Shown piece after piece: positions 12,268 to 62,823 of a stretch of DNA of 64,000 nt (its first letter is position 1; every line of letters starts with the position of its first letter). The DNA is from Oscillospiraceae bacterium (lineage in GTDB: Bacteria > Bacillota > Clostridia > Oscillospirales > CAG-272): NCBI GenBank assembly GCA_015065385.1, contig SVQK01000056.1, positions 124,001 to 188,000 of the forward strand, written 5' to 3'. Below the pieces are notes generated by a model, which had not been told where the DNA came from, did no database searches, and saw only the letters and a program-made list of their open reading frames with translations. Made by a program: the position numbers and the translations under genes.

Positions 12268-12774
12268 ATGACTGTTATGAGATCCGTATGGACAAACGTA
12301 AGCAAGCCCGATGTCGGAGACAAAATCGCTGTGCAGCTCGAAGAGTTCGGCAACTTCACGGCAACCTGTCAGAAGGTGAATGAAGACCGCGCGGAGTTCA
12401 TCTTTGACAATTGCGTCGCCGATGAAATCAGAGACGATGTGGACTCAGTTCTTGAGAAGATTGCGGCTGGGCTTCGGGATTCACTTAAAGCCAAGCTTTT
12501 GAAAGTCGATATCCCGACCTACGGACAGATCTTCGGCCATGACGATTTCTACGAGAGATTTGAGCCGGACAATGACGAGCGGTGGCCGTTGATGAAAGAT
12601 CGTCGAAATCGAATCGCACTTGATACGGACGGCAATCTTAACTGGTACTGGCTTAAGAATCGCTGTAAAAATTCTGCGCCCGCCTTCGCCTATGTCTACT
12701 ACGTTGGCGCTGCGGGCAGCAACCACGCGTCGGGCAGCGGTGGGGTTCGTCCGGCTTTTCTGTTGGAGCTTTGA
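12268..12774 (+). CDS. DGR target protein 1 (distal), CLec/DUF6273-like variable C-terminus (168 aa)
   Basis: ATG 12268 follows AAGGAG. The C-terminal region (from about residue 80; WPLMKDRRNRIALD, WYWLKNRCKN, then GGVRPAFLLEL) has the pattern of DUF6273-type C-type-lectin folds used by DGR targets. Its last 35 codons contain variable region 1. Compared with the template at 62741, every difference I could see (about 19) falls on a template adenine. There is no signal peptide or membrane helix. It sits among early genes about 50 kb from the reverse transcriptase, so it is diversified in trans along the genome. What it binds is unknown. Confidence 0.85.
   Translation: MTVMRSVWTNVSKPDVGDKIAVQLEEFGNFTATCQKVNEDRAEFIFDNCVADEIRDDVDSVLEKIAAGLRDSLKAKLLKVDIPTYGQIFGHDDFYERFEPDNDERWPLMKDRRNRIALDTDGNLNWYWLKNRCKNSAPAFAYVYYVGAAGSNHASGSGGVRPAFLLEL
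12672..12753 (+). repeat. DGR variable region 1 (VR1)
   Basis: It aligns to the template repeat from TTCTGCG to GGGGTTCGTCC. Template AAT/AAC codons are replaced by TAT, TAC, GTT, GCT, GGC, AGC, CAC and GGT, while template G, C and T positions are unchanged. That is the adenine-specific signature of DGR mutagenesis. Confidence 0.95.
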
Positions 12775-12784
12775 TATTCACCTG

Positions 12785-12815
12785 AACCCGAGACCCCTCG
12801 TGGGTCGAGGCGCTT
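12785..12815 (+). other. Hairpin/cruciform downstream of VR1
   Basis: GACCC-CTCGT-GGGTC (or, alternatively, CCTCG-TGGGT-CGAGG) forms a GC-rich stem-loop about 40 nt after VR1. A 29-nt block around it is identical to the one after VR2 at 61686. In the Bordetella phage DGR a hairpin downstream of the VR is needed for efficient retargeting, so a similar role is likely here. Confidence 0.75.
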
Positions 12816-12829
12816 ATAAAAAGGAGAAC

Positions 12830-13264
12830 ATGATGGGCAATCGAGCAGTGATCATGACGCCTGCCGGATACGGACAGGAGAGCGGCATTGGGATCTATCT
12901 TCATTGGAATGGCGGGTATGACAGCATATCCGCTTTTCTGAAATACTGCGAGCTTAGAGGGTTTCGCCCTCCGGACGAGGACTGCTACGGCTGGGCGAGG
13001 CTCTGCCAGATCATCGGGAATTACTTCGGCGGGGATTTATCCATCGGGATCGATGCTTTTCCGCGTCTTCCCGTTGACAATGGGGACAACGGAACATTCA
13101 TTATTGAGAAGTGGAAAATAGTCGGGCGGAAATTCAACGATCTGCCGGAACAGCATATCTACGACCTTTGTGAGATGGTATGCGCGATCGACAAGGCACA
13201 GCCTCGGAAAGACAGGCTTGGGAAGAAATACATCAAGATAGCTTTGAAAGGGGAAAGTATATGA
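12830..13264 (+). CDS. Conserved gut-phage hypothetical protein (144 aa)
   Basis: ATG 12830 has AAAAGGAG at 12819; the longer upstream open frame lies inside the DGR target and is not coding. The block GIYLHWNGGYDSISAFLKYC and later YGWARLCQIIGNYF is typical of a small phage family with no known role. The protein is soluble. Its stop overlaps the next start (ATGA), so the lipoprotein gene is coupled to it. Confidence 0.65.
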   Translation: MMGNRAVIMTPAGYGQESGIGIYLHWNGGYDSISAFLKYCELRGFRPPDEDCYGWARLCQIIGNYFGGDLSIGIDAFPRLPVDNGDNGTFIIEKWKIVGRKFNDLPEQHIYDLCEMVCAIDKAQPRKDRLGKKYIKIALKGESI

Positions 13265-13512
13265 AAAGAGTGCTGGCCGTGGCATTATTCGTAATAATCC
13301 TGCTGGCAATGCTTAATGCTTGCGGAACGAATATCCAAATTATCGATACAACCTGGCGATATTCTTACGGATACGTCTATCTCGGAGGTGAGAAAATTGC
13401 CGAAGGGAAAGTCGACAGCTGGCTCGATTTTGAAAACTCTGATATGATTCAGGTAAAAATCGACGGAAAAGTGTATCTAACACACTCAGCAAATGTTGTT
13501 CTTGTTGGGTAA
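13261..13512 (+). CDS. Small lipoprotein (83 aa)
   Basis: MKRVLAVALFVIILLAMLN is a signal peptide followed by AC, giving a lipobox-like LNAC with Cys at residue 21. The mature part is about 63 residues and beta-rich (WRYSYGYVYLGG, VKIDGKVYLTH). It would be anchored outside the host membrane. Phage lipoproteins often block superinfection or DNA injection, but nothing in the sequence proves this. The start overlaps the previous stop. Confidence 0.7.
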   Translation: MKRVLAVALFVIILLAMLNACGTNIQIIDTTWRYSYGYVYLGGEKIAEGKVDSWLDFENSDMIQVKIDGKVYLTHSANVVLVG

Positions 13513-13533
13513 TAAGGAAAGGAGTAGTACACA

Positions 13534-14316
13534 ATGTTGAAAATTGAAAATGTGACAATTGAAGGCTGGGAATCCGCGATCCGGGGAATGCGGAATCCGA
13601 TGAACTCGTGGACGAAATCTGATAGCTACGAAGGCTACGACTGCCATGCATGCGGGAAAATCGATCGCGAGGGTTCTTGCGCGAAAGCCGATCGCGACGA
13701 AGGCGTCTGCAAAAAATTCCACGGATGGCAAATCGGCCCAAACGACCGTAAACTTATGGAGAGCCTGAGAGACGCAGGATCGGATCACGCGAAGTACCGG
13801 AGAATGATCGTCGTATGGTGTGATATTCTCGCTCCGCTGTACTGGTGGAAGGAGTTCGACACCTACAAAGTTGGGACGGTTGCCAACTCCTGCTCGACGA
13901 TGCATAAGATCGCGGAGAAAGAGTTCGTGCTTGATGATTTCTCGCATGAGCATCTTTCCGACTTTGCGCGGGATTATATCCTCGGCGATGCCATTCACGA
14001 ACTGAATGTTAACCGGCATGAGTATCTTGTGACCGGTGAAAAACAGTACTGGTGGAACATGATTCAGCTTCTTCCTTCATCCTATAATCAAAAGCGGACG
14101 ATCATGTTGAACTACGAGGTGTTGGCAAACATCTATCCGGCGAGAAGAAATCACAAGCTCGACGAGTGGCATACGTTCTGCGACTGGATCGAGAGTTTGC
14201 CGGAGAGCTGGATCATCGTCGGAGAGACCGAAGACGAAAGAATCGAGAAATTATATTCCGCCGCAAAAACCGCAGTAAAGGAGTATGCCGACGGCGGACT
14301 TGCTCCGACAACCTAA
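13534..14316 (+). CDS. Conserved phage protein, possibly ThyX-related (260 aa)
   Basis: ATG 13534 follows AAAGGAG. An N-terminal cysteine pair (CHACGK near residue 34) and CKKFHGW are present. The core reads SDHAKYRRMIVVWCDILAPL, then WWKEFDTYKVG and NSCSTMHK. The order of a His, a hydrophobic strand, a charged helix and a Ser/Thr-rich turn recalls the flavin thymidylate synthase (ThyX) fold, but the RHR signature is absent. Treat it as a conserved hypothetical. It sits before a MazG-like gene, which fits nucleotide metabolism. Confidence 0.5.
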   Translation: MLKIENVTIEGWESAIRGMRNPMNSWTKSDSYEGYDCHACGKIDREGSCAKADRDEGVCKKFHGWQIGPNDRKLMESLRDAGSDHAKYRRMIVVWCDILAPLYWWKEFDTYKVGTVANSCSTMHKIAEKEFVLDDFSHEHLSDFARDYILGDAIHELNVNRHEYLVTGEKQYWWNMIQLLPSSYNQKRTIMLNYEVLANIYPARRNHKLDEWHTFCDWIESLPESWIIVGETEDERIEKLYSAAKTAVKEYADGGLAPTT

Positions 14317-14351
14317 TATAAAAAATCAAAGAAGGAGAAATAAAAAAAAAA

Positions 14352-14720
14352 ATGACTGCTGAAAATTGCGTCGAGGAAAAAGTCGACCTCCGGGCAAAGC
14401 TCGAACAGGTCACGGAGGAATGCGGAGAACTGGCGGCGGCCTGCATGAAGCTTGTGCGGGCTCTCGGCAACGGAAATCCCTGCAATGTAACCGAAGAAGA
14501 GGCCATCGCCAAGGTACTTGAAGAATGGTCCGACGTGGAGGTTGCCGGTATCTACCTTCTGCAGATGCTTGAGGGCATGTGCGACTATGATATTTACGAC
14601 CGGATCGATGAGATCGGGGCCGAGAAAACGGCAAGATGGCAGAAACGGGTAAAGGAGGACGGAAACAATGAAGTACTTCCTGGCGATGCTTGTTGTAACG
14701 GTGATGCTTGCGATCTTTAA
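14352..14720 (+). CDS. MazG-like nucleotide pyrophosphohydrolase (122 aa)
   Basis: The motif EQVTEECGELAAACMK (residues 18-33) and the later EEWSDVEVAGIYLLQML (55-72) give the paired E-rich helices of the all-alpha MazG/dUTPase-like NTP pyrophosphatases. Such enzymes cleave (d)NTPs to monophosphates and are common phage accessories for nucleotide pools or alarmone control. The C-terminal 15 residues (PGDACCNGDACDL) overlap the next gene's start and look unlike the family. Start ATG 14352 follows an AAGGAG at 14332 separated by an A-run. Confidence 0.75.
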   Translation: MTAENCVEEKVDLRAKLEQVTEECGELAAACMKLVRALGNGNPCNVTEEEAIAKVLEEWSDVEVAGIYLLQMLEGMCDYDIYDRIDEIGAEKTARWQKRVKEDGNNEVLPGDACCNGDACDL

Positions 14721-14826
14721 GCTGGCCGGATGGACCGACGTCTCGTGGCTGTGGGTACTCTCTCCGTTCTGGCTGCCGATGATCGAAGGTGTTTTCGTCC
14801 GTATCGCGGAATGGATGGACGATTGA
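14668..14826 (+). CDS. Small membrane protein (52 aa)
   Basis: ATG 14668 is preceded by AAAGGAGG at 14650. MKYFLAMLVVTVMLAIFKL forms one helix and SWLWVLSPFWLPMIEGVF a second, ending in an acidic tail. It overlaps the MazG-like gene by 53 nt in another frame. Its stop is the TGA of a TTGATATTT motif. Confidence 0.6.
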   Translation: MKYFLAMLVVTVMLAIFKLAGWTDVSWLWVLSPFWLPMIEGVFVRIAEWMDD

Positions 14827-14871
14827 TATTTGCAGACAAAAAATCTAAAAATTGAAAGAGAGAAAAAGGAT

Positions 14872-15294
14872 ATGATGTACATCTACAAAGTGGGGGATCT
14901 TCTCGAAACGCTGGACGGAGCGACGCGATACCGCGTGCAGACTGTTCTCGACAGAGGCTATCTTTGCGACAAAGTTATTCTGAATCAGCGCACAGGGCAT
15001 TATGATGGTAAAACAACCGTCCTTATGGATGAGATCGAGCTGGTCAAAAATGCGCGAAGATTCGGGCACGAGGAGCCGACGGATGATCCGCTCATGAGCC
15101 TTTTCAAAAATGCTGCAAACATTGTGAGTTTGGACGAGGAGAATCGCAGACTGAAGGCAGAAAACGCAAGACTGCTGCAAAAACTCAGTATCGTTGAAAA
15201 GTATATTTTGCTGATACAAAAGAACGCAAAAATCGCGGAAGATCATCTTCAACTATCATGCAAAATGCCGGAGGGTAATAACGATGGCCAATAA
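14872..15294 (+). CDS. Hypothetical protein with C-terminal coiled coil (140 aa)
   Basis: ATG 14872 is used because AAAAAGGA lies just upstream; the in-frame ATG at 14830 has none. Residues 1-55 form a small beta domain (YKVGDLLETLDGATRYRVQT). Residues 85-125 are a coiled coil (LDEENRRLKAENARLLQKL). No family was recognised. It overlaps the next gene by 11 nt. Confidence 0.6.
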   Translation: MMYIYKVGDLLETLDGATRYRVQTVLDRGYLCDKVILNQRTGHYDGKTTVLMDEIELVKNARRFGHEEPTDDPLMSLFKNAANIVSLDEENRRLKAENARLLQKLSIVEKYILLIQKNAKIAEDHLQLSCKMPEGNNDGQ

Positions 15295-15670
15295 GCATTA
15301 TATTTTCAAGAACGGATCGCAGGAGGCACAGGACATGATCTGTGCGCTTGTAGGGATCGACGACATCCGGTATCTCAGCGACGGGCATCATACCTTTGAC
15401 GGTCTTTATCATCAGCGAGCGGTGCTTTTTGGAGCTCTTGTAAAAGCGAACAAAGATCTGGCATGGAAATCAAGACGACATGACGACGGGGAGTATTGCT
15501 TCGGAGATCCGAAGTGGTTTATCGTCGGCATCAATACGCCGAAAGGACAGTACACGTATCATTATCACTATGATGACTACTGGGATCTGTTTGACTGCAA
15601 GGAACTTGACAGAGCTCCCAAATGGGACGGACATGATGAAAAGGATGTAACGAGACTGCTGAGTCTTTGA
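15284..15670 (+). CDS. Conserved phage hypothetical protein (WDGH motif, 128 aa)
   Basis: The ordered motifs DGHHTFDGLYHQRAVLFGAL, AWKSRRHDDGE, FIVGINTP, YHYDDYWDLFDCKELDRAP and KWDGH define a widespread phage family of unknown function. Several His/Asp residues are conserved and could bind metal. The start overlaps the previous gene; the stop is followed by TTGATATTT at 15671. Confidence 0.7.
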   Translation: MANKHYIFKNGSQEAQDMICALVGIDDIRYLSDGHHTFDGLYHQRAVLFGALVKANKDLAWKSRRHDDGEYCFGDPKWFIVGINTPKGQYTYHYHYDDYWDLFDCKELDRAPKWDGHDEKDVTRLLSL

Positions 15671-15695
15671 TTGATATTTCCGAAAGGAGGCCCTT

Positions 15696-16034: not shown

Positions 16035-16234
16035 TGAACTCATTTGTTACACTAACTGCTAAAACTGGTAATACACTCGCTGTGCATATGGATGATATTC
16101 TAATCATTTGCAGTATAGATAATGGATCCTCAATTAAACTAAAATCCACCGAAGATTGTTATTTGACAGTCTGTGAAACTATTGACGAAATTCTTGAAAA
16201 GATTGCACAGATAGGAGAGGAACAAACAAAATGA
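16031..16234 (+). CDS. FlbD-like small protein (67 aa)
   Basis: The pattern FVTLTAKTGNTLAVHMDDIL ... STEDCYLTVCETIDEILEKI fits the short FlbD-type family (beta strands, then TxxE-V helix) found in flagellar operons and in phages. It is AT-richer than its neighbours. Start 16031 overlaps the previous stop; the end overlaps the next ATG. Its role in phages is unknown. Confidence 0.6.
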   Translation: MMNSFVTLTAKTGNTLAVHMDDILIICSIDNGSSIKLKSTEDCYLTVCETIDEILEKIAQIGEEQTK

Positions 16235-17921: not shown

Positions 17922-17956
17922 TTAAATCCAATCTTATACATAACGGGGTATTTAAG

Positions 17957-18165: not shown

Positions 18166-18193
18166 ATTTTATATTTGAAAAGGAGATTTGAAA

Positions 18194-27304: not shown

Positions 27305-27870
27305 GCTTCCAGTTCAACCGGCACGCGGAGATCGAGGGCAAGCACGCTTTTCTCTCGGCGTCGAAGTATCATTGGATCCGGTACGATGAAGCGAAGATGG
27401 CCGACGTATTCCGCAATTTCTTCGCGGCGGAGCAGGGAACGCGGATGCACGATTTCGCGTCCCATTGCATTCGGATGGGACAGAAGCTTCCGCGGACGAA
27501 GCAGACGCTCAACATGTTCGTCAACGACGCGGTGGAGTTCGGGATGTCCTCGGAGGTGGTGCTGTATTACAGCCGCAACTGTTTCGGGACGACGGACGCG
27601 ATCGGTTTCCGGAATGGGGTGCTCCGCATTCACGACTACAAGAGCGGTGTGATCCCGGCGCATTTCGAGCAGCTCTTCGTCTACGCGGCTCTGTTTTGTC
27701 TGGAATACGACGTTGCGCCGGAGGATATTCAGATCGAGCTGCGGATCTATCAGTCGGGTGAGATTCAGAAATGCAGGCCGGAGCCGGAGGTGATCCGGGA
27801 GGTCATGCGGAAAGCGGTGGATTTTGACATGCTGATCGAATCCATCAAAGAGGAAGAGCGGGCCAATTGA
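27301..27870 (+). CDS. PD-(D/E)XK (RecB/Cas4-like) nuclease (189 aa)
   Basis: Motifs include RMHDFASHCI (a conserved His, near residue 48), GTTDAIGF (D, near 100), LRIHDYKSG (D..K, near 111) and EQLFVYAALFCLEY (QxxxY, near 122). These place it in the RecB/Cas4-like PD-(D/E)XK group common in phage recombination modules. It is coupled to the VRR-NUC gene and its stop is the TGA of TTGATATTT. Confidence 0.75.
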   Translation: MSFQFNRHAEIEGKHAFLSASKYHWIRYDEAKMADVFRNFFAAEQGTRMHDFASHCIRMGQKLPRTKQTLNMFVNDAVEFGMSSEVVLYYSRNCFGTTDAIGFRNGVLRIHDYKSGVIPAHFEQLFVYAALFCLEYDVAPEDIQIELRIYQSGEIQKCRPEPEVIREVMRKAVDFDMLIESIKEEERAN

Positions 27871-27881
27871 TATTTGAAATA

Positions 27882-27921
27882 GGGGGTGGGATCGCCGGAT
27901 GTGACCCCCTCTTCTTTTTCA
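27882..27921 (+). terminator. Rho-independent terminator
   Basis: GGGGGT ... ACCCCC stem followed by TCTTCTTTTTC, between the nuclease and RNAP-like genes. A TTGATATTT copy follows at 27921. Confidence 0.65.
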
Positions 27922-27953
27922 TTGATATTTGCAAAGAAAGGCAGATTACAGCC

Positions 27954-30773
27954 ATGGATACGAAAAACGACGCGATCTACATCGATGAGGAAACCGGCGA
28001 GGTCTTGGATGACATGGATATTCTCGAGCACTACGGGATGCCCCGGCGGTCCGGGAGGTACCCGTGGGGTTCCGGGGACAATCCTTACCAGCGGACGGGG
28101 GATTTCATTTCCCGCGTGAACAAGATGAAGGCCGACGGCATGTCGGAGGGGGAGATCGCCCGCGAGCTTGAGATTGTGAACTACCGCGGCGAACCGTCCC
28201 CATCCCGGCTCAGAACGCAGCTCTCCGTCGCCAAGAATTACCGCCGCTCGCTTCTTGTAGAGCAGGCGAAGGACATGAAGGCGAAGGGTCTCGGAGCTAC
28301 GGAGATCGGCGAGAAGATGGGGCTGAACGAGTCTACGGTCCGCTCCCTTCTCAATACGAAGGCCGAAGCCCGGATGCTCGCGGCGTCCAACACGGCGAAA
28401 TACCTCAAAGAGGAGATCGACAAGAACGGCATGATCGACGTTGGTTCCAGCGTGGAGCGAAAGCTCGGCGTGACGCGGACGACGCTCGACAACGCGCTGA
28501 TGATCCTCGAAATGGAGGGATATCCGACTTACGGAGGACGGGTCCCTCAGGTGACGAACAAGGGGCAGATGACGACGCTCAAGGTGGTCTGCCCGCCGGG
28601 CGCTGAGAAAAAAGATATTTACGATTATGCGAAGATCCACCAGCTCGGAGACAGGATCTCGTCCGACGGAGGCGAGACCTTCGATCCGGTCTGGGTCTAT
28701 CCGAAGTCGCTGGATTCGAAGCGGGTGCAGATCCGTTACGCGGAAGAAGGCGGCAAGGACAAGGACGGTGTGGTTGAGATCCGGCCGGGTGTGGAAGACG
28801 TTTCCCTCGGCGGCTCCTCTTACGCGCAGGTCAGGGTTCTGGTGGACGGGACGCATTACATCAAGGGCATGGCGGTTTACGGGGATCCGGCCGACTTCCC
28901 GGAGGGGGTCGACATGATCTTCAACACGAACAAGCACGTCGGGACGCCGATGCTGTCGGATGATCCGAACGCGAAGTGCGTGCTCAAGCCCATCGATAAG
29001 GCGAATCCGACGAACCCCTTCGGGTCGCTGATCAAGGACGGCATCGTCGATCCTGACGACCCTTCGAAGAAGGAGGGCGGACAGCGGTACTACTACGACG
29101 AGAACGGCGAGAAGCAGCTCTCCGTCATCAACAAGCGGGCCGACGCCGGGGATTGGAACGAATGGAGCCACGATCTCCCCTCGCAGTTCCTTTCGAAGCA
29201 GAACAACAAGCTCGTGAAGCAGCAGCTCGATCTTGCGAAGATCGACAAGCAGAGCGAATACGAGGAGATCTGCGCATTGACGAATCCGACGGTGAAGAAG
29301 CATCTCCTTCTGAATTTCGCGAACGACTGTGATTCGGCGGCGGTGCATCTCAAGGCGGCCGCCCTTCCGAGGCAGCGGTATCAGGTGATCCTTCCCCTGA
29401 CGACGCTCGGGGACGACGAGGTCTATGCTCCGAACTACAAGCCTGGGGAGAAGGTCGCGCTGATCCGGTATCCGCACGGGGGGACGTTCGAGATCCCGAT
29501 CCTGAAGGTGAACAATAAGAATGCGGAGGGGAGGCGGGTGATCGGGCCCAATCCGCCGGATGCGGTCGGCATCAACGCGAAGGTCGCGGAGCGGCTCTCC
29601 GGGGCGGATTTCGACGGGGACACGGTCATGGTGATCCCGCTCTCCGGCAAGGCGAATATCACCTCTACGCCGACGCTTCCGGGGCTCGAAGGCTTCGATC
29701 CGAAGGAGCAGTACGGCGGGAAACCGGCAGGGACCTTCAAGCAGATGACGAAGCCCGGCACGCAGATGGAGATGGGGAAGGTTTCAAATCTCATCACCGA
29801 CATGACGATCGGGGGGGCCGGTCCGGAAGAGCTGGCAAAGGCGGTTCGCCACTCCATGGTGGTCATCGACGCATACAAGCACAAGCTGGATTACAAGCAG
29901 TCCGAAATCGACAACGATATCCCCGCCCTCAAACGCAGATGGCAGGGGCATACGACGGAGGACGGGCGGTATTCCACGGGGGCCGCCACGATCATTTCGC
30001 AGGCGAAGGGGCAGGCGAGCGTTCCGAAATACCGGGGGGTCCAGAAGATCGATCCCGAGACGGGCAAGCTCTACTGGGACAGCCGGAAGACGCCCGAGAC
30101 CTATGTGGACAAGAACGGTAAGACGCAGACGCGAATGGTCCGCACCACGAAAATGGCGGCCACGGACGACGCGATGAAGCTGGTTTCGGAAGGCAGGACG
30201 CAGGTCGAGCTGCTGTACGCGGATTACGCGAACACGATGAAGTCTCTGGCGAACGACGCGCGAAAAGAATACGTTTCCGCAGGAAGGATCGAGCGCAGTT
30301 CCGAAGCCGCGCAGAAATATGCGGCCGAAGTGGCAAATCTTGAAGCGCAGCTGAACGTCGCAAAGCTCAACGAGCCGCGCGAACGTCAGGCGCAGCTGAA
30401 CGCCAACGCGAACATCAAGCTCTGGCTGGAGAAGAATCCCGACGCGACGAACGCCGAGATCAAGAAGCAGTCTCAGCGGGAACTCTCGAACGAGCGCGCA
30501 AAGCTCGGCGCGAAGAGAAGTCCGGTGAAGATCAGCCCCGAACAATGGGAGGCGATTCAGGCCGGAGCGGTTTCGGAAAACGTGCTGACGAACATCCTCA
30601 AGTACACGGACATTGATGTCGTCCGCGGCTACGCGACGCCTCGCGCTTCCAAAGAGCTGAGCGCGGTGAAGCAGGCGAGGATCCACGCGCTGCAGAACTC
30701 CGGCTACACGAATCAGGACATCGCAGACGCGCTCGGCGTTTCGGTTTCGACTGTGCTGAACTATCTTGACTGA
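27954..30773 (+). CDS. RNA-polymerase-like protein with DFDGD active-site motif (939 aa)
   Basis: ATG 27954 is chosen because AAAGGCAG precedes it and the upstream frame crosses a terminator. Residues 552-556 are DFDGD in LSGADFDGDTVMVIPL, the metal-binding motif of the double-psi beta-barrel of RNAP beta prime and of single-chain phage enzymes such as YonO. An upstream barrel-like part (KVALIRYPHGGTFEIPILKV, near 500-520) and DAVGINAKVAERL fit the same fold. Helix-turn-helix segments lie near 60-80, 110-135 (LGATEIGEKMGLNESTVRSL) and 915-939. It is likely a phage RNA polymerase or an evolved relative; activity is not shown. It sits just before the packaging region. Confidence 0.75.
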   Translation: MDTKNDAIYIDEETGEVLDDMDILEHYGMPRRSGRYPWGSGDNPYQRTGDFISRVNKMKADGMSEGEIARELEIVNYRGEPSPSRLRTQLSVAKNYRRSLLVEQAKDMKAKGLGATEIGEKMGLNESTVRSLLNTKAEARMLAASNTAKYLKEEIDKNGMIDVGSSVERKLGVTRTTLDNALMILEMEGYPTYGGRVPQVTNKGQMTTLKVVCPPGAEKKDIYDYAKIHQLGDRISSDGGETFDPVWVYPKSLDSKRVQIRYAEEGGKDKDGVVEIRPGVEDVSLGGSSYAQVRVLVDGTHYIKGMAVYGDPADFPEGVDMIFNTNKHVGTPMLSDDPNAKCVLKPIDKANPTNPFGSLIKDGIVDPDDPSKKEGGQRYYYDENGEKQLSVINKRADAGDWNEWSHDLPSQFLSKQNNKLVKQQLDLAKIDKQSEYEEICALTNPTVKKHLLLNFANDCDSAAVHLKAAALPRQRYQVILPLTTLGDDEVYAPNYKPGEKVALIRYPHGGTFEIPILKVNNKNAEGRRVIGPNPPDAVGINAKVAERLSGADFDGDTVMVIPLSGKANITSTPTLPGLEGFDPKEQYGGKPAGTFKQMTKPGTQMEMGKVSNLITDMTIGGAGPEELAKAVRHSMVVIDAYKHKLDYKQSEIDNDIPALKRRWQGHTTEDGRYSTGAATIISQAKGQASVPKYRGVQKIDPETGKLYWDSRKTPETYVDKNGKTQTRMVRTTKMAATDDAMKLVSEGRTQVELLYADYANTMKSLANDARKEYVSAGRIERSSEAAQKYAAEVANLEAQLNVAKLNEPRERQAQLNANANIKLWLEKNPDATNAEIKKQSQRELSNERAKLGAKRSPVKISPEQWEAIQAGAVSENVLTNILKYTDIDVVRGYATPRASKELSAVKQARIHALQNSGYTNQDIADALGVSVSTVLNYLD

Positions 30774-34776: not shown

Positions 34777-35643
34777 TCAATGCACGCATTTCTGGCATGG
34801 GGTTTTGCCTCTGCGCAAAGCTTCTGATAAGCTTACCGGGTATGAGTTGACACCGCCGCAATCCGGATCGATGTGGTATCTGACTCCGGATGGTGTTATA
34901 TAGACGGTTTCTTCGTCCGGTTCTTCTTCAAGTGTATATATAGTCAGATCTTCCTGCCCTGTGGAGAGTGAGCGGTAATTGGACATATTACCGACAGATT
35001 CTCCAATACTTTCCATGGCGTAGTAATAGTCATCATAAGTAAAAACTTGCTTGAAGATCAGCCAATCAGCGAGCGGAGCAAGCGGATATTCCTTTTGCGG
35101 AGCTTGAATTGTAGCAAGGGAGACCGTTACAATATCGGCTCGCAGGAAGTTATCAAGATCAACGTTCCAGCGGATCAGGTTTAGTTGCCGGGCAAGATCG
35201 TAGGGGTTGCTCCATGTGAAATCTCCACGGGAGTCATCATAGCCGAGGGCACGAAGGGCAAACGTTAGATACATGGCGGAGGATACAGTGCCGGTACCGA
35301 ACTCGGTATCCGAGATGCCGTTGGCAAGGCCCTCGTTATATGCGAATCCTATATAGTCGTCTGCCCAGTTCGGAACGTCAGTGAATGGATGCCAGCGATG
35401 GACAGCCAGAGCTTCTTCTTCATAACCGATCAGACGGATCAGCATGACGATTGCTTCTACTCTGGTTGCGGGTCTCTCCAAATCAAAGTTGTTATCGGAG
35501 ACTCCTTTGAATAAACCGAGTGATTTCAAAGCCTGTGCCTGTGATTCTTCCACACCTATGTATCTTGCATTTACTGCTGTCGGCAGGAAACAAAAGAGCA
35601 TCGCGATCGCAAGCAAGAGGGAGATAATTTGTGAAGATTTCAT
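34777..35643 (-). CDS. Secreted SLH-domain protein, minus strand cargo gene (288 aa)
   Basis: MKSSQIISLLLAIAMLFCFL then PTAVNA is a signal peptide. Residues about 35-150 hold SLH-like repeats (LGLFKGVSDNNFDLERPATR, HPFTDVPNWADDYIGFAYNE, LANGISDTEFGTGTVSSAMY). SLH domains bind secondary wall polymers of Gram-positive cells. The C-terminus (VRYHIDPDCGGVNSYPVSLS, then TPCQKC) is a Cys/His-containing domain. It is likely a lysogenic-conversion protein displayed on the host surface. It has its own promoter, next to a run of 13 C. Confidence 0.8.
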   Translation of the reverse strand: MKSSQIISLLLAIAMLFCFLPTAVNARYIGVEESQAQALKSLGLFKGVSDNNFDLERPATRVEAIVMLIRLIGYEEEALAVHRWHPFTDVPNWADDYIGFAYNEGLANGISDTEFGTGTVSSAMYLTFALRALGYDDSRGDFTWSNPYDLARQLNLIRWNVDLDNFLRADIVTVSLATIQAPQKEYPLAPLADWLIFKQVFTYDDYYYAMESIGESVGNMSNYRSLSTGQEDLTIYTLEEEPDEETVYITPSGVRYHIDPDCGGVNSYPVSLSEALRRGKTPCQKCVH

Positions 35644-35794: not shown

Positions 35795-37543
35795 ATGGCG
35801 CTCTCGAATACGGCTGTGCCGAGGTACTACGGCGTGTTTCGGGACGCCGTGATTCGCGGGGAGATCCCGGTATGCAGAGAGATTTCCCTTCAGATGAACC
35901 GGATCGACTATCTGATCCGAAGCCCGAACTACTACTATGATCCCGCTCCGGTTGAAGGGTGGATCCGATTCTGCGAGAATGAGCTGACCCTGACGGACGG
36001 GTCCGATCTCGCTCTTCTGCCGTCGTTCAAGCTTTGGGGCGAGGATCTGCTCGGGTGGTACTACTTCGAGGAACGGAGCGTTTATGAGCCCGGAACAAAC
36101 GGACGCGGAGGACGGTATGTCCGCAAGAGGATCAAGAAACGACTGTGCCACAAGCAGTATCTGATCGTCGGGCGCGGCGCGGCAAAGTCCGTTTATGATT
36201 CCTCCGTACAGGCGTTTTTCCTGAATGCGGACTCCTCTACAACCCAGCAGATCACGACGGCTCCGACTATGAAGCAGGCGGACGAGGTAATGAGCCCGAT
36301 CCGAACGGCTATCACACGATCCCGCGGCCCTCTGTTCCGGTTTCTGACGGAAGGATCCATCCAGAACACGACCGGGTCGAAGGCAAAGAGGGTTAAACTG
36401 GCTCCGACAAAGAAGGGGATCGAGAACTTTCTGACGGGATCATTGCTTGAAATCCGTCCGATGAATACGGACAAGCTGCAAGGACTTCGATGCAAGGTGG
36501 CCACGATCGACGAATGGCTGTCCGGGGATGTAAATGAGGACGTTGTGGGGCCGATCGAGCAGGGGGCTTCCAAGCTGGACGATTATGTGATCATCGCCAC
36601 AAGTTCTGAGGGAACCGTTCGGAACGGAACCGGCGACTCCATCAAAATGGAGTTGATAAAGATCCTCAAAGGCGAATACATCAATCCGCACACTTCGATC
36701 TGGTGGTACAAACTGGACAGCTTGGAGGAAGTCGGCAAGCCGAACATGTGGCTGAAATGCAATCCGAACATCGGCAAGACTGTCTCTTATGAGACATATC
36801 AGCTTGACGTGGAACGGGCCGAGAAGGTTCCGTCCGCCAAAAACGATATTCTGGCAAAGCGGTTCGGGCTGGCTATGGAAGGCTACACATACTACTTCAC
36901 CTATGAGGAAACCAAAGTGCATAGGCCGCGGGAGTTCTGGTCGATGCCGTGTTCTCTTGGAGCGGACTTGTCTTTGGGGGACGACTTCTGCGCTTTTACG
37001 TTCCTGTTTCCTCTGCCAGACGGATGCTTCGGCGTAAAGACGCGGGCTTACATCACATCGCTGACGATGAGCAAATTACAGGCGTCGCTCCGACAGAAGT
37101 ACGACGAATTCATGGCGGAAGGAAGTCTAATCGTCATGGAGGGAACGGTTCTCGATATGATCGACGTCTACGACGATCTGGACCGGCATATCGCGGAGAA
37201 AGAATACGACGTGCGGTGTTTCGGCTACGACCCGTATAACGCGCGGGAATTCGTGGAGCGGTGGACAACGGAAAACGGACCGTTCGGCGTGGAGAAGGTC
37301 ATACAGGGCGCGAAGACGGAGAGCGTTCCGCTCGGCGAGCTGAAGAAGCTGGCGGGGGAGAGGATGCTGATCTTCGACGAGCAGATGATGACCTTTGCGA
37401 TGGGGAACTGCATTGCGATCGAGGACACGAACGGAAACCGCAAGCTGATGAAGAAGCGGTACGACCAGAAGATCGACTCGGTCGCGGCCATGATGGACGC
37501 TTACGTGGCATACAAGGCCAACCGGGACGCGTTCGAGGGATAA
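35795..37543 (+). CDS. terL: Terminase large subunit (582 aa)
   Basis: The Walker A-like VGRGAAKS is near residue 124 and VATIDEW (Walker B) near 235. The nuclease acidic residues are in GADLSLGDD (near 389), GYDPYNA (near 476) and DSVAAMMDAYVAY (near 561). This is the ATP-driven DNA packaging motor and nuclease of HK97-like phages. GAAAGGAG precedes ATG 35795. It heads the structural operon. Confidence 0.93.
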   Translation: MALSNTAVPRYYGVFRDAVIRGEIPVCREISLQMNRIDYLIRSPNYYYDPAPVEGWIRFCENELTLTDGSDLALLPSFKLWGEDLLGWYYFEERSVYEPGTNGRGGRYVRKRIKKRLCHKQYLIVGRGAAKSVYDSSVQAFFLNADSSTTQQITTAPTMKQADEVMSPIRTAITRSRGPLFRFLTEGSIQNTTGSKAKRVKLAPTKKGIENFLTGSLLEIRPMNTDKLQGLRCKVATIDEWLSGDVNEDVVGPIEQGASKLDDYVIIATSSEGTVRNGTGDSIKMELIKILKGEYINPHTSIWWYKLDSLEEVGKPNMWLKCNPNIGKTVSYETYQLDVERAEKVPSAKNDILAKRFGLAMEGYTYYFTYEETKVHRPREFWSMPCSLGADLSLGDDFCAFTFLFPLPDGCFGVKTRAYITSLTMSKLQASLRQKYDEFMAEGSLIVMEGTVLDMIDVYDDLDRHIAEKEYDVRCFGYDPYNAREFVERWTTENGPFGVEKVIQGAKTESVPLGELKKLAGERMLIFDEQMMTFAMGNCIAIEDTNGNRKLMKKRYDQKIDSVAAMMDAYVAYKANRDAFEG

Positions 37544-54833: not shown

Positions 54834-55291
54834 TGTATCATTCCATAACATTCGGCAACAAGAACACATACTCGGACTGGCATCTGGTTCCCTCTTCCCG
54901 TCCGGTTGTCGATCCGCCGAAACCGAAGACACAGTATGTGGATATTCCCGGCGCGGACGGTTCCATCGACTTGACGGAATCCCTCGCCGGGAGACCGGTT
55001 TTCTCGGATCGGCAGGGAAGTTTTGAATTCATTGTTTTGAACGATTTTAACCTCGACAACTATTCTTACGATTGGAACAGCGTATATACGGCCGTCTTAT
55101 CCTATCTGCACGGGAAACGGATGCGGATGGTGCTTGAAGACGATCCGACATATTTTTACGAAGGGCGGTTCAGCGTCAATGGCTGGAAGAGCGATGCGAA
55201 TAACTCGAAGATCACGATAGATTATGTCGTGGGGCCTTATAAGTACCCCGTCTCGAACGGAGCAAACGACTATACGGGAGGGATCCTCTGA
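54833..55291 (+). CDS. Distal tail protein-like (152 aa)
   Basis: ITFGNKNTYSDWHLVPSSRP then YVDIPGADGSIDLTESLAGR, GSFEFIVLND and YFYEGRFSVNGWKSDANN is the pattern of short Dit-like baseplate hub proteins of Gram-positive phages. It overlaps the tape measure by one base (TGATG), so it is translationally coupled. Confidence 0.78.
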   Translation: MYHSITFGNKNTYSDWHLVPSSRPVVDPPKPKTQYVDIPGADGSIDLTESLAGRPVFSDRQGSFEFIVLNDFNLDNYSYDWNSVYTAVLSYLHGKRMRMVLEDDPTYFYEGRFSVNGWKSDANNSKITIDYVVGPYKYPVSNGANDYTGGIL

Positions 55292-58026
55292 TGTATCAGA
55301 TTTACGCGGATAACACTCTTATCTATGACGATACGAGTTCCGATCCGTATATCAAAGTTGCGTCCCCGTCTTTGACGATGGAGGAAAGCGCGGCGGGATC
55401 TCTCAGGATGACGCTTCCTCCGGGAAACGCCGGATATGAAGCGATTGTCCGGATGGCGACGGAGATCGTCGTCAAAAAGGATGGAGATGAGATCTGGTCT
55501 GGACGGGCGCTTCAGGAAACCAAGGATTTCTGGAATCAAAGGCAGCTCGTCTGCGAAGGCGCGCTTGCCTATCTCAACGACACGACGCAGCCGCCGCACG
55601 CTTACAGCTATTCCGGCGGAACGGCAGTCCGTCAATATTTGTCCGCGCTTCTGACCGTTCACAATGCGAATGTTCCGGCTTCGAAGCAGTTTACACTCGG
55701 CGCGGTCACGGTGACCGGGGATATTTCCGTCACGACGAACTACGAGAAGACGATGGAGTGCGTCAACAAGCTGATTCAGGAGTTCGGCGGGAACATGCGG
55801 GTGCGGAAGGAAAACGGCGTCCGCTATCTGGACTATCTGAACACGGAAGCCCGCACCACAACGCAGGCGATCGAGTTCGGAAAGAATCTGATCGATTTCA
55901 CGAAGTCGTCCGATTCATCAGACTATGCGACGGTTGTCATTCCTCTCGGAGCGAAGCAGGACGAAGAGATCGAAGGAGTCGACAACTATCTAACCGTCAA
56001 GAGCGTGAACGGCGGGTCGATTTACGTGCAGGCATCGCAAGAAGTGATCAGTCAGTACGGATGGATCGAGACGGTCGTTCATTGGGATGACGAGACCAGC
56101 GCGTCCGCTCTTCTCGCAAAGGGGCAGCAGTATCTGTCGGACATTCAGTTCGACACGATGGTGCTCACCCTTTCCGCTCTGGATCTTCATTATCTGAACG
56201 CGGAGATCGAAGACGTTCGGGTCGGAGACAGGATCCACGTTATCTCAACGCTTCACGGTATCGACCGGTTCTTTCCGGTGAAAAAGCTGACGATCCCTCT
56301 GGATCAGCCGCAGAATACCGTATTCCAGCTTGGGGACGACGTGAAAGTCAGTCTTACGTCCGTGGCGGGGAAGATCAATACCGAGGTCAAGAAGATGATC
56401 GACGAAGCGGTGGACGAGGACGCGATCCTCAGAGAGGCTCGTGATAACGCCGCCGCGATCATGAATCTGAAGACGAACGGGTTCATCACGATCACGACGG
56501 ACGATTACGGAACCAATGAACTGTACATCTCCGAAGTGCGTCCGATCAAGAACGATCAGGGACAGTTTGTGGCGCAGCGTTTCTGGCGGTTCAATATGAA
56601 CGGCCTCGGATACACGGAGGACTACGGCGTAAGCTGGAAAGCCGCGATGTTGATGGACGGATCCATTCTCGGGGAACGGATCGCAGCCGGTTCGATCCAC
56701 GGGAGCAAGATCACGGCCGGAACGCTGGCGTTAACGACTGCCGCCGGACAGGAAGCTCTGACGATCGGTCTGACGTCTCGCGGCATGGCGACCGACAGTT
56801 TTGAAATCGGCGACATCGATCCGAACGACGGCTCCAATGTCAGCTCTACAACTTACGCGAGAAGCAAGTATAAGATCTATCTGAGATCCGGGACTGTTGT
56901 AAAGCTCACAAACGACTCCTACCTTTTTGATCCGATCGAGTATTCCGACAATACGGATGCCGAAAGCGGTTTTGTCCGGGCGTATGGTACGCCTGTGGAC
57001 AGGACGTTTACGGTTCCGTCTACGAACTATTATCGGTTCATTGCGCGCAAGACTTCCGGGGCGACGATCAGCAGCAGCGATCTGACGACTATTGCCGGAG
57101 CGTTTGAAATCGGCGGGACTACTGCGACGATTACGGCTGAAAATCTGCAGATTCTCGGAATGGTGACGTTTACCGATCTTTCGACTTCCGGATCCACGAC
57201 TATCAACGGAGCGAACATCCAGACCGGTACAGTCACGGCGAATAAGCTCAACGTCCGCGGTCTGACTGTAACGAGAGATTCCGACGGGGCAGTTTCATTT
57301 GCCATCGATGCGAATGGGAATGTAACGATCAACGGCAGCGTCACAATGGGAGCGGGATCGTCTATATCGTGGAGTCAGGTAACAGATGTTCCGAGCACAG
57401 TCACCTATGCTTATGACCATGCTGACGCGGCGTATGATTATGCCGGTGACGCATATCTTCTCGCAGGAAATGCGGGTACCGCTGCAAATGCCGCAAAGAC
57501 AATCGCAGCTCAGATTGCGGAGGGTACATATACCGGCACGACGATTGACGGCGTGACTTACACGGGTACGTTTATCAACGGTACGTCGATATTCTCTCCC
57601 ACGATCTATGCGAATGAATTCGTCACGAAACCTCCTACATCTTCCTCCGGGACAAACAATACAGGCGGATTCTTATTGCAGGGGTATTATGGCGGAGTAC
57701 TCAGGGATGTTTTCAGAATCTCATTCAACGGAGGAAATACCGTTCCGACGACTTATATGGATGCTTGGGGCGAGCTCGACCTGCCATCCAGCGTCCGCAT
57801 AAGTGACGGTTCAAGTTATGGTGGGTATCTCATGGGCGGAACATCCGCGTCTCTGAGTTCCTATGCAACTCTGCAAGGATATTTCAAGGTAGACGGCGTT
57901 CTCAATACAGGAGGTGGAGGAAACAATAACGGATACTTGGTGGTACGCAACGGAACCGCTGCGCCTTCCGAATATTTCTCTTCGACACCTCCGCTTGGGA
58001 CCGTATATTTCCAATGGGAATACTAA
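55291..58026 (+). CDS. Tail tip/fibre protein with prophage-tail-endopeptidase-like N-terminus (911 aa)
   Basis: Residues 1-360 (YQIYADNTLIYDDTSSDPYI, EIVVKKDGDEIWSGRAL, RQLVCEGALAYLNDTTQPPH) form a Tal/gp27-like tail tip module. Residues 480-700 have collagen- and triple-helix-like repeats (ENLQILGMVTFTDLSTSG, INGANIQTGTVTANKLNV RG). The C-terminus (from about 740) is Gly/Tyr-rich. It likely forms the trimeric tip that contacts the cell. It overlaps the Dit-like gene by one base. Confidence 0.8.
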   Translation: MYQIYADNTLIYDDTSSDPYIKVASPSLTMEESAAGSLRMTLPPGNAGYEAIVRMATEIVVKKDGDEIWSGRALQETKDFWNQRQLVCEGALAYLNDTTQPPHAYSYSGGTAVRQYLSALLTVHNANVPASKQFTLGAVTVTGDISVTTNYEKTMECVNKLIQEFGGNMRVRKENGVRYLDYLNTEARTTTQAIEFGKNLIDFTKSSDSSDYATVVIPLGAKQDEEIEGVDNYLTVKSVNGGSIYVQASQEVISQYGWIETVVHWDDETSASALLAKGQQYLSDIQFDTMVLTLSALDLHYLNAEIEDVRVGDRIHVISTLHGIDRFFPVKKLTIPLDQPQNTVFQLGDDVKVSLTSVAGKINTEVKKMIDEAVDEDAILREARDNAAAIMNLKTNGFITITTDDYGTNELYISEVRPIKNDQGQFVAQRFWRFNMNGLGYTEDYGVSWKAAMLMDGSILGERIAAGSIHGSKITAGTLALTTAAGQEALTIGLTSRGMATDSFEIGDIDPNDGSNVSSTTYARSKYKIYLRSGTVVKLTNDSYLFDPIEYSDNTDAESGFVRAYGTPVDRTFTVPSTNYYRFIARKTSGATISSSDLTTIAGAFEIGGTTATITAENLQILGMVTFTDLSTSGSTTINGANIQTGTVTANKLNVRGLTVTRDSDGAVSFAIDANGNVTINGSVTMGAGSSISWSQVTDVPSTVTYAYDHADAAYDYAGDAYLLAGNAGTAANAAKTIAAQIAEGTYTGTTIDGVTYTGTFINGTSIFSPTIYANEFVTKPPTSSSGTNNTGGFLLQGYYGGVLRDVFRISFNGGNTVPTTYMDAWGELDLPSSVRISDGSSYGGYLMGGTSASLSSYATLQGYFKVDGVLNTGGGGNNNGYLVVRNGTAAPSEYFSSTPPLGTVYFQWEY

Positions 58027-58036
58027 GGGTGAGTAA

Positions 58037-60460: not shown

Positions 60461-60500
60461 AGACTTCAATAAATATTTCATAAAATCAAAAGGAGAAACT

Positions 60501-60827
60501 ATGACTTACGGAGCGCTAAACAATGCCGTGCCTGTGCTGAATAAGCTTGTCTTGCAGAATCTGAGGCTCAGGCAGGCGTATCAGCTGACAAAAATAGCGA
60601 AGCGGGTCAATGACGAGCTCGCTTTTTTTAACGCAAAGTATCAGGAGATCATGAACGGCGACTTCCCTGACGACGAGAAAATCAAAATGATGAACGAGCT
60701 TCTGAATTTTGAGGTCGAATGGGATGTTGAACCGCTTGTTTTCTCAGTTAACGACGATCTCATTCTGTCTGCTTCCGATCTTGAAATGGGCCGGGGGCTG
60801 GTTGAGATAAGGGAAGAACCAACCTAA
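60501..60827 (+). CDS. DUF1617-like small phage protein (108 aa)
   Basis: ATG 60501 has AAAGGAG. LNNAVPVLNKLVLQNLRLRQ AYQLTKIAKRVNDEL and KIKMMNELLNFEVEWDVEPL are typical of the DUF1617 family encoded after tail fibres in siphophages. Function unknown. Confidence 0.65.
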   Translation: MTYGALNNAVPVLNKLVLQNLRLRQAYQLTKIAKRVNDELAFFNAKYQEIMNGDFPDDEKIKMMNELLNFEVEWDVEPLVFSVNDDLILSASDLEMGRGLVEIREEPT

Positions 60828-60850
60828 CACAACAAGGAGGATTTTGAGCT

Positions 60851-61684
60851 ATGGGAAAATTCAACACTTACCCGGCGGCGGACAGGCTTGCCAAAACCGA
60901 CATTCTTCTGAAAGACACGTCGGGTTCTACGGATACCAGAAAGATCACGGGCGAGCTGCTTGCGAGCGATCTTCTCGGTATGATCTCCGCGGACATGCAC
61001 AGAAACGTATATCGCGGCAAGAATCTCGGCACGTCTCTCACGGCGTCGCAGAAGACGGCGATTTCCAGTGGCACGTTCGACGATATTTTCATCGGCGACT
61101 ACTGGACGATCGGCGGGAAAAGCTACGCGGTCGCGGATATGGACTACTGGTATAATCACGGGGATACCGTATTCACGAAGCATCATCTCGTTCTGATCCC
61201 GACCACCAACATGTACAACGCGAAGATGAACGAGACGAACATCACGACCGGCGCCTATATCGGCTCGGCGATGTACACCGGCGAATACACGAGCGACGAG
61301 GAAGTAAAGGGACTTACCCCCGCCAGAACAGAAATCGCGACGGCTTTCGGGGAGAATCTCCTTACCCACAGAGAGTATCTTGAAAACGCGGTTACGGACG
61401 GCATCGCTACAGCCGGAGCATGGGTCGATTTTACGGTCGATCTGATGTCCGAGACGATGGTCTACGGTCACAGAATCAGATCCACCGGAACAGTTGCCTG
61501 CAACTCCAAGTCCCAGCTCGCACTCTTCAGACTCAAGCCGAACTTCCTCGGAAGAAGCTCTGTATGGCTGTGCGATGTCGTTTCTGCGACCAACTTCGCC
61601 CGTGTCGACAGCTATGGCGCGGCGAGCGGCAACAACGCGTCGAACAGCCTTGGGGTTCGTCCGGTCTTCGCTGTTGGAGTGTAA
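60851..61684 (+). CDS. DGR target protein 2 (proximal), variable tail/receptor-binding protein (277 aa)
   Basis: AAGGAGGATTTTGAGCT precedes ATG 60851. The N-terminal part (NTYPAADRLAKTDILLKDT) resembles virion-attachment segments. The middle (IFIGDYWTIGGKSYAVADMD YW, HHLVLIPTTNMYNAKMN, EYLENAVTDG) and the C-terminus ending LGVRPVFAVGV form the CLec-type fold used by DGR targets. Variable region 2 covers the last 28 codons or so. It lies in the tail-fibre operon next to the reverse transcriptase, so it most likely changes host receptor specificity. Confidence 0.88.
   Translation: MGKFNTYPAADRLAKTDILLKDTSGSTDTRKITGELLASDLLGMISADMHRNVYRGKNLGTSLTASQKTAISSGTFDDIFIGDYWTIGGKSYAVADMDYWYNHGDTVFTKHHLVLIPTTNMYNAKMNETNITTGAYIGSAMYTGEYTSDEEVKGLTPARTEIATAFGENLLTHREYLENAVTDGIATAGAWVDFTVDLMSETMVYGHRIRSTGTVACNSKSQLALFRLKPNFLGRSSVWLCDVVSATNFARVDSYGAASGNNASNSLGVRPVFAVGV
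61580..61663 (+). repeat. DGR variable region 2 (VR2)
   Basis: It matches the template from GTTTCTGCGACC to GGGGTTCGTCC. I count about 13 changes at template adenines (AAT to CGT, TAT, CTT; AAC to GAC, AGC, GGC) and one T-to-G change (in AAT to GCG). Confidence 0.95.
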
Positions 61685-61720
61685 ACCCCGAGACCCCTCG
61701 TGGGTCGAGGCGCTTTTTGA
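61685..61720 (+). other. Hairpin/cruciform downstream of VR2, also terminator-like
   Basis: The GACCC-CTCGT-GGGTC stem is identical to that after VR1, here followed by GCGCTTTTT, so it may also terminate transcription. It starts about 22 nt after VR2, compared with about 32 nt after VR1. Confidence 0.75.
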
Positions 61721-61762
61721 AAAATCCGTAAACAACTACTCAGAAGGGAGATTTACTGAATC

Positions 61763-62080
61763 ATGAATGAAGAGCTTTATACCCTGACTCTCGCGGACGG
61801 CACGGTAATCGAAAACGTCGCCAGAAACGGCGATAACTATATCGTGACCGGGGCCGTCGATACGTCGGTCTTTGAAGACAACTGCGTGCCTCTTACGATT
61901 TCCGACGGAGAAAATGAGGAAATCCATGAGAATGCGGTCTTCGTGCAGGCACAGGCGCACGGAAATGAAACGTGGCTTGTGTTCCGCGATCTCGGAGCGG
62001 CCGAGCTTCGCGAAATGAGGCTGAGAGCTGACGTGGATTATGTCGCTATGATGGCGGATATCGAACTGGAGGTGGAATAA
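61763..62080 (+). CDS. Hypothetical protein of the DGR/tail operon (105 aa)
   Basis: MNEELYTLTLADGTVIENVA RN then FEDNCVPLTISDGENEEIHE NA and FRDLGAAELREMRL suggest a small beta domain, acidic and soluble. GAAGGGAG precedes ATG 61763. It overlaps the XkdX-like gene. The function is unknown; similar small genes lie between fibres and XkdX in other phages. Confidence 0.6.
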   Translation: MNEELYTLTLADGTVIENVARNGDNYIVTGAVDTSVFEDNCVPLTISDGENEEIHENAVFVQAQAHGNETWLVFRDLGAAELREMRLRADVDYVAMMADIELEVE

Positions 62081-62223
62081 TGGAACATTCTGCAAAATTC
62101 GAGAAGGTAAAGGCTTACTATAAGTCTGGCCTCTGGAACATCACCAAGGTGAGAAACGCCGTCGTGAAGGGATGGATCACCGAAGCTGAGTTCGAGGAAA
62201 TCACAGGAATTACCTACGAATGA
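62080..62223 (+). CDS. XkdX family protein (47 aa)
   Basis: FEKVKAYYKSGLWNITKVRN AVVKGWITEAEFEEITG is the XkdX signature (W, then GWIT-EEF-ITG). GGAGGTGG precedes ATG 62080, which overlaps the previous TAA. It is a common tiny protein after tail genes of Firmicutes prophages with an unknown role. Confidence 0.85.
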   Translation: MEHSAKFEKVKAYYKSGLWNITKVRNAVVKGWITEAEFEEITGITYE

Positions 62224-62729
62224 GCGTAATCGTTCCGAAAAGGAAGCTCTCCCGGTACGAAGCGCTGATCTACGCCGAAACGCTGCAAAAAGAGCTGACT
62301 GATTTAATGCTCAGAGATTTCGGGATAAAAGATATGAACCGTATGCTGAGGAATCAGGCGTTTGCAGCGTCCGGCTGTGATATTCGGTCTGAGGAAGAAT
62401 ACAGGCTGGCCTGTCGGAAAACAGCGTGGCTGTTCAGTGAGATCAAGAAAAGGATCAATTATCTGACCTCTCTGCTCACAGCCAATCTCAGAGCGGCGCA
62501 TTCGAGATTTCCGATGACTCTGCATGAATACGAGATCCGGAGGGACTGCCTGAACGGAGCGATCGTCAACTGTGAGCAGATCAAACAGGAACTGCAAAGA
62601 TCCGTTGAAATGTTCGCAGTTGACTTAAACGTATACGAACGCTCTATAAAAGCGATCAACACAGAAATTGAGTTGATAAAGTCTTGGCGATCCCGCGATA
62701 ATAAGATCCGAGTAAAGATCAAGGGGTAG
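62220..62729 (+). CDS. avd: Avd-like DGR accessory protein candidate (169 aa)
   Basis: It overlaps the XkdX stop (ATGA) and lies between VR2 and the template repeat, the normal place of avd. The whole protein is helical and basic (KRKLSRYEALIYAETLQKEL, LFSEIKKRINYLTSLLTANL, YERSIKAINTEIELIKSW). This agrees with the helical-bundle Avd that binds the reverse transcriptase and template RNA, although it is longer than the Bordetella phage Avd (about 128 aa) and I cannot confirm homology by sequence alone. Confidence 0.55.
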   Translation: MSVIVPKRKLSRYEALIYAETLQKELTDLMLRDFGIKDMNRMLRNQAFAASGCDIRSEEEYRLACRKTAWLFSEIKKRINYLTSLLTANLRAAHSRFPMTLHEYEIRRDCLNGAIVNCEQIKQELQRSVEMFAVDLNVYERSIKAINTEIELIKSWRSRDNKIRVKIKG

Positions 62730-62740
62730 TGTCTATTTGC

Positions 62741-62823
62741 GTTTCTGCGACCAACTTCGCCAATGTCAACAACAATGGCAATGCGAACAACAACAACGCG
62801 TCGAACAGCAATGGGGTTCGTCC
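62741..62823 (+). repeat. DGR template repeat (TR)
   Basis: About 83 nt, rich in AAC and AAT codons (ten AAC/AAT codons within about 20), which maximises adenine targets. It is not in a coding frame. It begins GTTTCTGCGACC and ends GGGGTTCGTCCA. It pairs with VR2 (61580) and VR1 (12672). Confidence 0.93.

Follow-up and report, generated by a model that had tools for sequence, protein, structure and literature searches.

Can a single diversity-generating retroelement (DGR) rewrite two genes that lie far apart in one prophage, and if so, what would the distant gene be for? The question is raised by a 64,000-nucleotide stretch of DNA from an Oscillospiraceae bacterium (the window; positions 124001-188000 of a 543,524-base contig, C45, in a genome of 4,305,326 bases). 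The original prediction was that one template repeat (TR) at 62741 serves two variable regions (VRs) about 50 kb apart, VR2 in a neighboring tail-type gene and VR1 in a gene with a non-structural neighborhood. Repeat comparison and BLAST place the TR at 62741..62824, VR1 at 12672..12757 and VR2 at 61579..61664, all on the plus strand, and a BLAST search of the genome with the TR region found these three sites only. VR1 and VR2 are about 49 kb apart along the prophage. Aligned base by base with the TR, each over 86 nt, VR1 has 20 of 28 template adenines changed (about 19 had been predicted) and no other change, and VR2 has 13 of 27 adenines changed and one T to G, as foreseen. The setting of both targets was also borne out: the VR2 gene closes the tail cluster, and genes upstream of VR1 match DNA polymerase, single-strand annealing protein and helicase families.

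Extending VR1 6 nt further 3′ adds two C-to-T changes, thus the homology stops about there. Over an 84-nt core, 56 of the 57 non-adenine positions are kept in VR2 and 55 in VR1. Both VRs are found in related domains, and a similarity due to chance, or to gene conversion between VR1 and VR2 without a DGR, should be considered. However the next best site for the core on either strand of the window keeps only 32 of the 57 positions, and VR1 does not have the T to G change of VR2 and differs from VR2 at many sites. The adenine-only pattern excludes these explanations for all practical purposes.

The DGR-type reverse transcriptase (RT) gene begins at 62930 on the plus strand and continues past the window end at 64000 as a 436-aa open frame (RVT_1, E 2.4e-16). 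Motif 4 of DGR-type RTs is xGxxxSQ; the window RT displays IGDQLSQ, as well as YMDD. A 169-aa gene (62220..62729, plus strand) occupies the Avd position and shows no match to the NCBIfam Avd model. The element is a DGR by its RT motifs, a TR near the RT, VRs that differ from the TR almost only at adenines, and a hairpin downstream of the VR. Rfam and PDB sequence searches gave no matches, and PADLOC, run on ten proteins, gave none for nine and generic RT matches for the RT.

The hairpins downstream of VR1 (12787..12810) and VR2 (61687..61710), both on the plus strand, are identical, with the stem GACCC and a 5-nt loop, CTCGT. The 24-nt hairpin sequence, CCCGAGACCCCTCGTGGGTCGAGG, is exact after both VRs, with none expected from 100 shuffles of the window, and its last 21 nt are found at these two places only in the whole genome, with up to 3 mismatches allowed. 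Single-strand folding of the hairpin alone yields z values of only -1.5 and -1.7, thus the case for the hairpin rests on its recurrence. In 18 of 20 VRs from 10 phages, the longest hairpin in the next 70 nt has a CYYGY loop of 5 nt on a stem of 5 bp or more and sits 21-34 nt after the VR; of 4000 random segments, a control not drawn from gene ends, 0.175% qualify. G012_VR2 also contains a CYYGY hairpin of equal length and G014_VR1 only an imperfect one (G and L numbers are handles of this study). In public phages of other types the near and the early VR tend to have the same hairpin class. GAAA loops are present in Dulem virus 34, identical GATA hairpins in Dulem virus 37, and 5- and 6-nt loops in Shimadzu; no convincing hairpin was seen after the VRs of Lelie, Toutatis, nd4 and nd12.

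VR1 is part of a 168-aa gene (12268..12774, plus strand) that encodes a putative stand-alone DUF6273 protein, as judged by matches to phrog_21980 (E 1.4e-31) and DUF6273 (E 0.00038, below Pfam's cut-off) and by a family alignment. DUF6273 is C-type-lectin-like according to PMC10743442. Neither a tail-type N-terminal extension nor a hydrophobic segment is seen in the VR1 protein, by a 20-row family alignment and hydropathy. The VR2 gene (60851..61684, plus strand) encodes 277 aa, with the C-terminal domain of the VR1 family (profile match, probability 98.4) preceded by an N-terminal extension. The VR2 protein itself has no DUF6273 match; a relative, L019, is well above the DUF6273 cut-off.

Comparison of related phage sequences provides strong evidence that the distant early target is really being rewritten in them. 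In L014, L016, L022 and L023 the 946 nt that begin at the start codon and run 400 nt beyond the stop codon hold 22 variable sites. All 22 are in the VR and fall on the 24 adenines of the template of a relative, G009; the templates of the four themselves are not on these contigs. The 4,592 nt after the gene have 4 differences; upstream there are 2 within 1,000 nt, 17 within 2,000 and 138 within 3,500. Between L099 and L020 the VR holds all 16 differences found over 1,564 sites, and L092 and L093 differ at 26 of 1,900, 11 of them in one early VR, 15 in a second early VR just upstream and none elsewhere. L112 and L113 show 13 differences from L114 in the VR region and 9 elsewhere. Less clean are L100, L105, L115 and L116, and L035, L097 and L098, which vary in the VR and outside it too; L017/L018 and L107/L108 are identical throughout. 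In 33 distinct early alleles (untrimmed, 72 nt) 511 of 751 adenines and 11 of 1625 other bases are changed, and in 23 tail alleles treated alike 339 of 520 and 8 of 1136; alleles had to exceed a match score to be counted, and for seven of them the template used was that of a relative, thus the pooled non-adenine rate is a lower figure.

A second allele of the window's own phage was not found in IMG/VR or genome searches, so that the activity of this VR1 copy is something we infer, and VR1 might be a relic, formerly diversified and now frozen. This is very improbable, as VR1 keeps every non-adenine base of the present TR over the 86 nt, the RT gene has an open frame, and in relatives the early VR varies within a gene that is otherwise the same. 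The IMG/VR contig 3300028454_001165 was considered as a population sample and rejected; it is identical over 31,575 compared bases and is therefore probably the same assembly.

Homologues of the VR1 protein were found at 35 IMG/VR loci, the window's own virus included, and at 9 bacterial genome loci; Cuneatibacter caecimuris DSM 29486 is among the loci. The phage collection has one such record, Fontainebleau. An RT is present in the same record or genome for 24 VR1-homologue records (RVT_1 profile, and window RT as query; weak matches in G044 and G051 were not counted). In 21 of these the early VR matches a TR beside the record's own RT (G001, G003, G006, G007, G009, G012, G018, G022, G024, G025, G030, G031, G033, G036, G043, G045, G046, G047, G048, G049 and G050), the TR match being second-best, after a match of VR against VR, in G036 and G048. 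The other three (G008, G028 and G039) appear to be cut by the contig end before the TR or VR. It should be noted that G001 and the window, G007 and G047, and G030 and G031 are the same or nearly the same virus. The early VR displays no non-adenine mismatch to its own TR in 16 of the 21. G006 has three such mismatches, G009 one, G018 four and G049 one, and the single mismatch of G001 is in a match that runs past the end of homology. No RT was found in 21 further records, 6 of them VR1 records in the RVT_1 search and 15 in the search with the window RT; their contigs measure 8 to 67 kb and may be fragments. Three of the 15 came in only through a VR-end pattern. Among records found by their RT, G014 also has an early VR, and only a tail VR was seen in the partial contigs G015 and G016. 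The DGR RT match of G015 (L040), beside the TR/VR2 pair, has one internal TAA.

In a comparison of the window VR1 gene with 295 genomes of the bacterial family, only its own genome matches along the gene, and six others match over 27-51 bases. A profile search of 394 genomes of the order matched 30, its own included, many of which may be DUF6273 proteins generally. Some phages have two early targets, each with its own VR, and thus three targets per TR; these are at L092:9826 and 10444, L096:8509 and 10444, L095:6307 and 9146, and L061 (G012) 14903 and 17817. The two early genes of L092/L093 seem to come from different branches of the family. DUF6353 proteins recur around the early target in relatives (L006:16670-17596; L096:8651-9415 and 10590-11399; L113:10568-11428) and are also upstream in the window's prophage. 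An SPFH/Band_7 gene upstream of VR1 was considered as a linked partner and dropped, being present in only 6 of 25 records (5 over the cut-off).

Among the TRs compared, a phage's own TR is the best match for 16 of 17 early VRs. The window VR1 agrees with its own TR at all 47 non-adenine positions, and every other TR gives 9 or more such mismatches. The exception is G006, whose VR1 still fits an older template; its TR seems to have changed after VR1 was written. The TR of G006 (L050, contig position 36607, minus strand) reads CTT at a place that is AAT or AAC in most relatives, which looks like a loss of adenines from the template itself. In G031 the target gene body is 63% identical to that of Fontainebleau, 61% to that of G022 and about 40% to those of most of its RT neighbors, whereas the G031 RT is 70-86% identical to the main group, 48% to that of G036 and 42% to that of Fontainebleau. 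Yet its VR has no non-adenine mismatch to its own TR and 15 to that of Fontainebleau. The simplest reading of these sequences is that an exchanged target gene was rewritten by the resident template. RT and target distances across 20 phages correlate (rho 0.62, with none of 2000 permutations as high), a figure that hides exchanges such as that of G031.

The gene order along the prophage is DNA polymerase (158..3313, phrog_4210), single-strand annealing protein (3386..3913, phrog_4787), helicase (9187..10464, phrog_62), VR1 gene, terminase (35795), portal (39165), head protease (41529), tail genes, including a tail protein at 55291..58026 (phrog_3558), VR2 gene, TR and RT; the four genes with a phrog match are on the plus strand. 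The preferred reading, with a probability of roughly 0.7, is that one DGR diversifies both a tail-type protein and an early, cytosolic hypervariable binding protein. The TR transcript would be copied by the RT with errors at adenines, and the cDNA would replace, in trans, the VR of either gene, both sites being recognized by the common VR 3′ end (GGGGTTCGTCC) together with the downstream hairpin. VR2 would diversify the tail-type, probably receptor-binding, protein, and VR1 a small protein, stand-alone and C-type-lectin-like, expressed from the early/replication region. The latter would most likely be an intracellular hypervariable binder of a variable partner, either a host defence protein or a competing phage. 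Within this reading we infer the homing mechanism (from phage BPP-1), early expression, cytosolic location and the class of ligand.

A crude hydropathy test shows no hydrophobic segment (highest 19-residue mean 1.23) in any of 28 proteins, namely the 8 public second targets and 20 members of the VR1 family, for some of which no TR was tested. In both VR classes Gly, Tyr and Leu are commoner, and Pro, Cys, Ile and Asp rarer, than codon-position base frequencies predict. Production and selection of both proteins would give such a pattern; so might a dinucleotide bias of the mutagenesis.

The same residue spectra, being alike in early and tail VRs, are also compatible with a virion protein whose gene merely sits among early genes, i.e., a second receptor-binding protein or a tail or capsid decoration. 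The VR1 protein and the tail target have a C-terminal domain family in common, the VR1 protein weakly matches phrog_10993, a Hoc-like head decoration family (E 0.0023), and an Mtd-like receptor-binding role was proposed for such second targets by Baykov et al. (PMC10743442). However in divergent phages these targets are outside the structural module and near replication genes, the window's family is without the N-terminal extension of tail targets, and the second target of nd12 is fused to DUF3310. A virion protein is thus unlikely, but it is the alternative to be taken most seriously. Hydrophobic proteins precede the VR1 gene in the window and DUF6353 proteins flank the early target in L096 and L113, which might point to a cell-envelope protein, expressed from the prophage and acting in superinfection exclusion via neighboring membrane proteins. 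With no hydrophobic segment in the VR1 protein, and with Fontainebleau neighbors annotated as DNA polymerase I, hypothetical protein and helicase, this is improbable. Besides the single allele of the window's phage and the role proposed by Baykov et al., two further points weigh against the preferred reading. The window genes are mostly on one strand, so that strand gives no call of early or late transcription, and the AlphaFold models are poor (pLDDT 37.3 for the VR2 protein and 48.8 for the VR1 protein).

The prophage is predicted to be about 80 kb and integrated in the bacterial genome. An 80,076-base IMG/VR virus record has the same sequence, with ends that map to about C45:112,107-192,182. 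The left-most 1.5 kb of this record resembles what we take to be the host lysyl-tRNA synthetase gene, thus the phage probably begins near 113.6 kb. The right end is an integrase-like gene (L007:2910-4181, labeled from reading of the sequence), and between the RT and this gene are what are presumably amidase- and holin-like genes. No attachment repeat was found. If the predicted ends are correct, VR1 and VR2 would be about 30 kb apart the other way round in a circular phage of about 80 kb. A 968-aa gene at 27867-30773 of the window has a very strong match to phrog_4291, annotated as RNA-dependent RNA polymerase, and is possibly a phage single-chain RNA polymerase. A 288-aa gene on the minus strand (34777-35643), between the early and late genes, gives the impression of a signal-like start and S-layer-like repeats. 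A second RT gene on the same contig, L012 (C45:312568-313041), is outside the prophage.

More broadly, and with somewhat less than an even chance of being right, many gut phages may use one DGR in two arms races, with a variable tail protein outside the cell and, inside it, a hypervariable cytosolic binder, used much like an antibody to follow host defence proteins as they vary, or rival phages. Early targets would be duplicated, passed from one DGR lineage to another and overwritten from the template of the phage in which they reside. If the early proteins do act inside the cell, targeted hypermutation serves intracellular conflict and not just receptor choice. A large DGR survey (PMC8144416) states that in fragmented assemblies targets not adjoining the RT would go undetected, and distant targets are therefore under-counted.

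The original prediction held a distant second target to be unusual; this did not stand. Thirteen of 53 public phage records with a related RT were examined, hand-picked and mostly gut phages; for MT835491, Brigit, Taranis, Lelie, Toutatis and Dulem 37 the part covered was 50 kb. In 8 of the 13 (Fontainebleau, Lelie, Shimadzu, nd4, nd12, Toutatis, Dulem 34 and Dulem 37) there is a second VR, well away from the TR and not within the structural module, and the other five (Brigit, Taranis, MT835491, MT835543 and BalMu-1) have a near VR only. Seven of the eight second targets match DUF6273, two of them below Pfam's cut-off, and that of Dulem 37 matches FGE-sulfatase, below cut-off. Methyltransferase, Erf, SSB and DNA polymerase genes are found near the second targets of Fontainebleau, Shimadzu, nd4, Toutatis and Dulem 34. 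In Lelie and nd12 the neighbors are annotated as hypothetical, thus "early" there rests on distance from structural genes. Distal second VRs (PMC8008677, PMC12629997) and two-target gut phage DGRs (PMC10743442, PMC11792537) are already published, as is the DUF3310 fusion of nd12 (PMC10743442). Alignments of two candidate prophages in PMC11792537 vary at both VRs. Toutatis is listed with a DGR target of no known function in PMC5883640, the available part of which mentions no second VR. Apparently new are the conservation of stand-alone early targets as a family, with two members in some phages, and the strong evidence for its activity; in the literature covered, to which preprints and most subscription journals did not belong, there was no description of such a family, of a phage with two early targets or of the CYYGY hairpin.

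The DGR of Bordetella phage BPP-1 has one target. Like the element described here it has a TR, VR and RT, and a downstream hairpin, which in BPP-1 is needed for homing (PMC3240598); the hairpin loops are 4-nt GRNA in the phage DGRs of that paper and 5-nt CYYGY here. The Quimbyvirus DGR (PMC8008677) is alike in its adenine-specific variation among near-identical genomes. However it belongs to a Bacteroides phage, with an RT in three overlapping frames where the window RT frame is open. Its distal target is on the opposite strand, beside methyltransferases and a nuclease, whereas that of the window is on the same strand, in the replication region. Unlike the Quimbyvirus target, the window target has homologues in many Firmicutes phages. 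A distal second VR is also described for four inducible species of gut prophage (PMC12629997), which are likened here from a summary. Small DUF6273 second DGR targets are also found in nd4 and nd12 (target2, PMC10743442) and in Lelie/CP11 (PMC11792537); the available parts of these two papers suggest receptor binding as the role or state none, and the location of the second target is not discussed there. The second VRs of nd4, nd12 and Lelie are placed here 12-16 kb from the TR, outside the structural module. Acutalibacter phage Fontainebleau is among the induced prophages of Acutalibacter muris in PMC10197239, the available part of which does not mention a DGR; as it carries both targets, the question becomes directly testable in culture. 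Fontainebleau (ON453893) resembles the window phage in having a homologous early target, which in Fontainebleau lies between the genes for DNA polymerase I and a helicase, a second VR in the tail region and a TR beside the RT, but it is a 39-kb phage and its RT is 39% identical.

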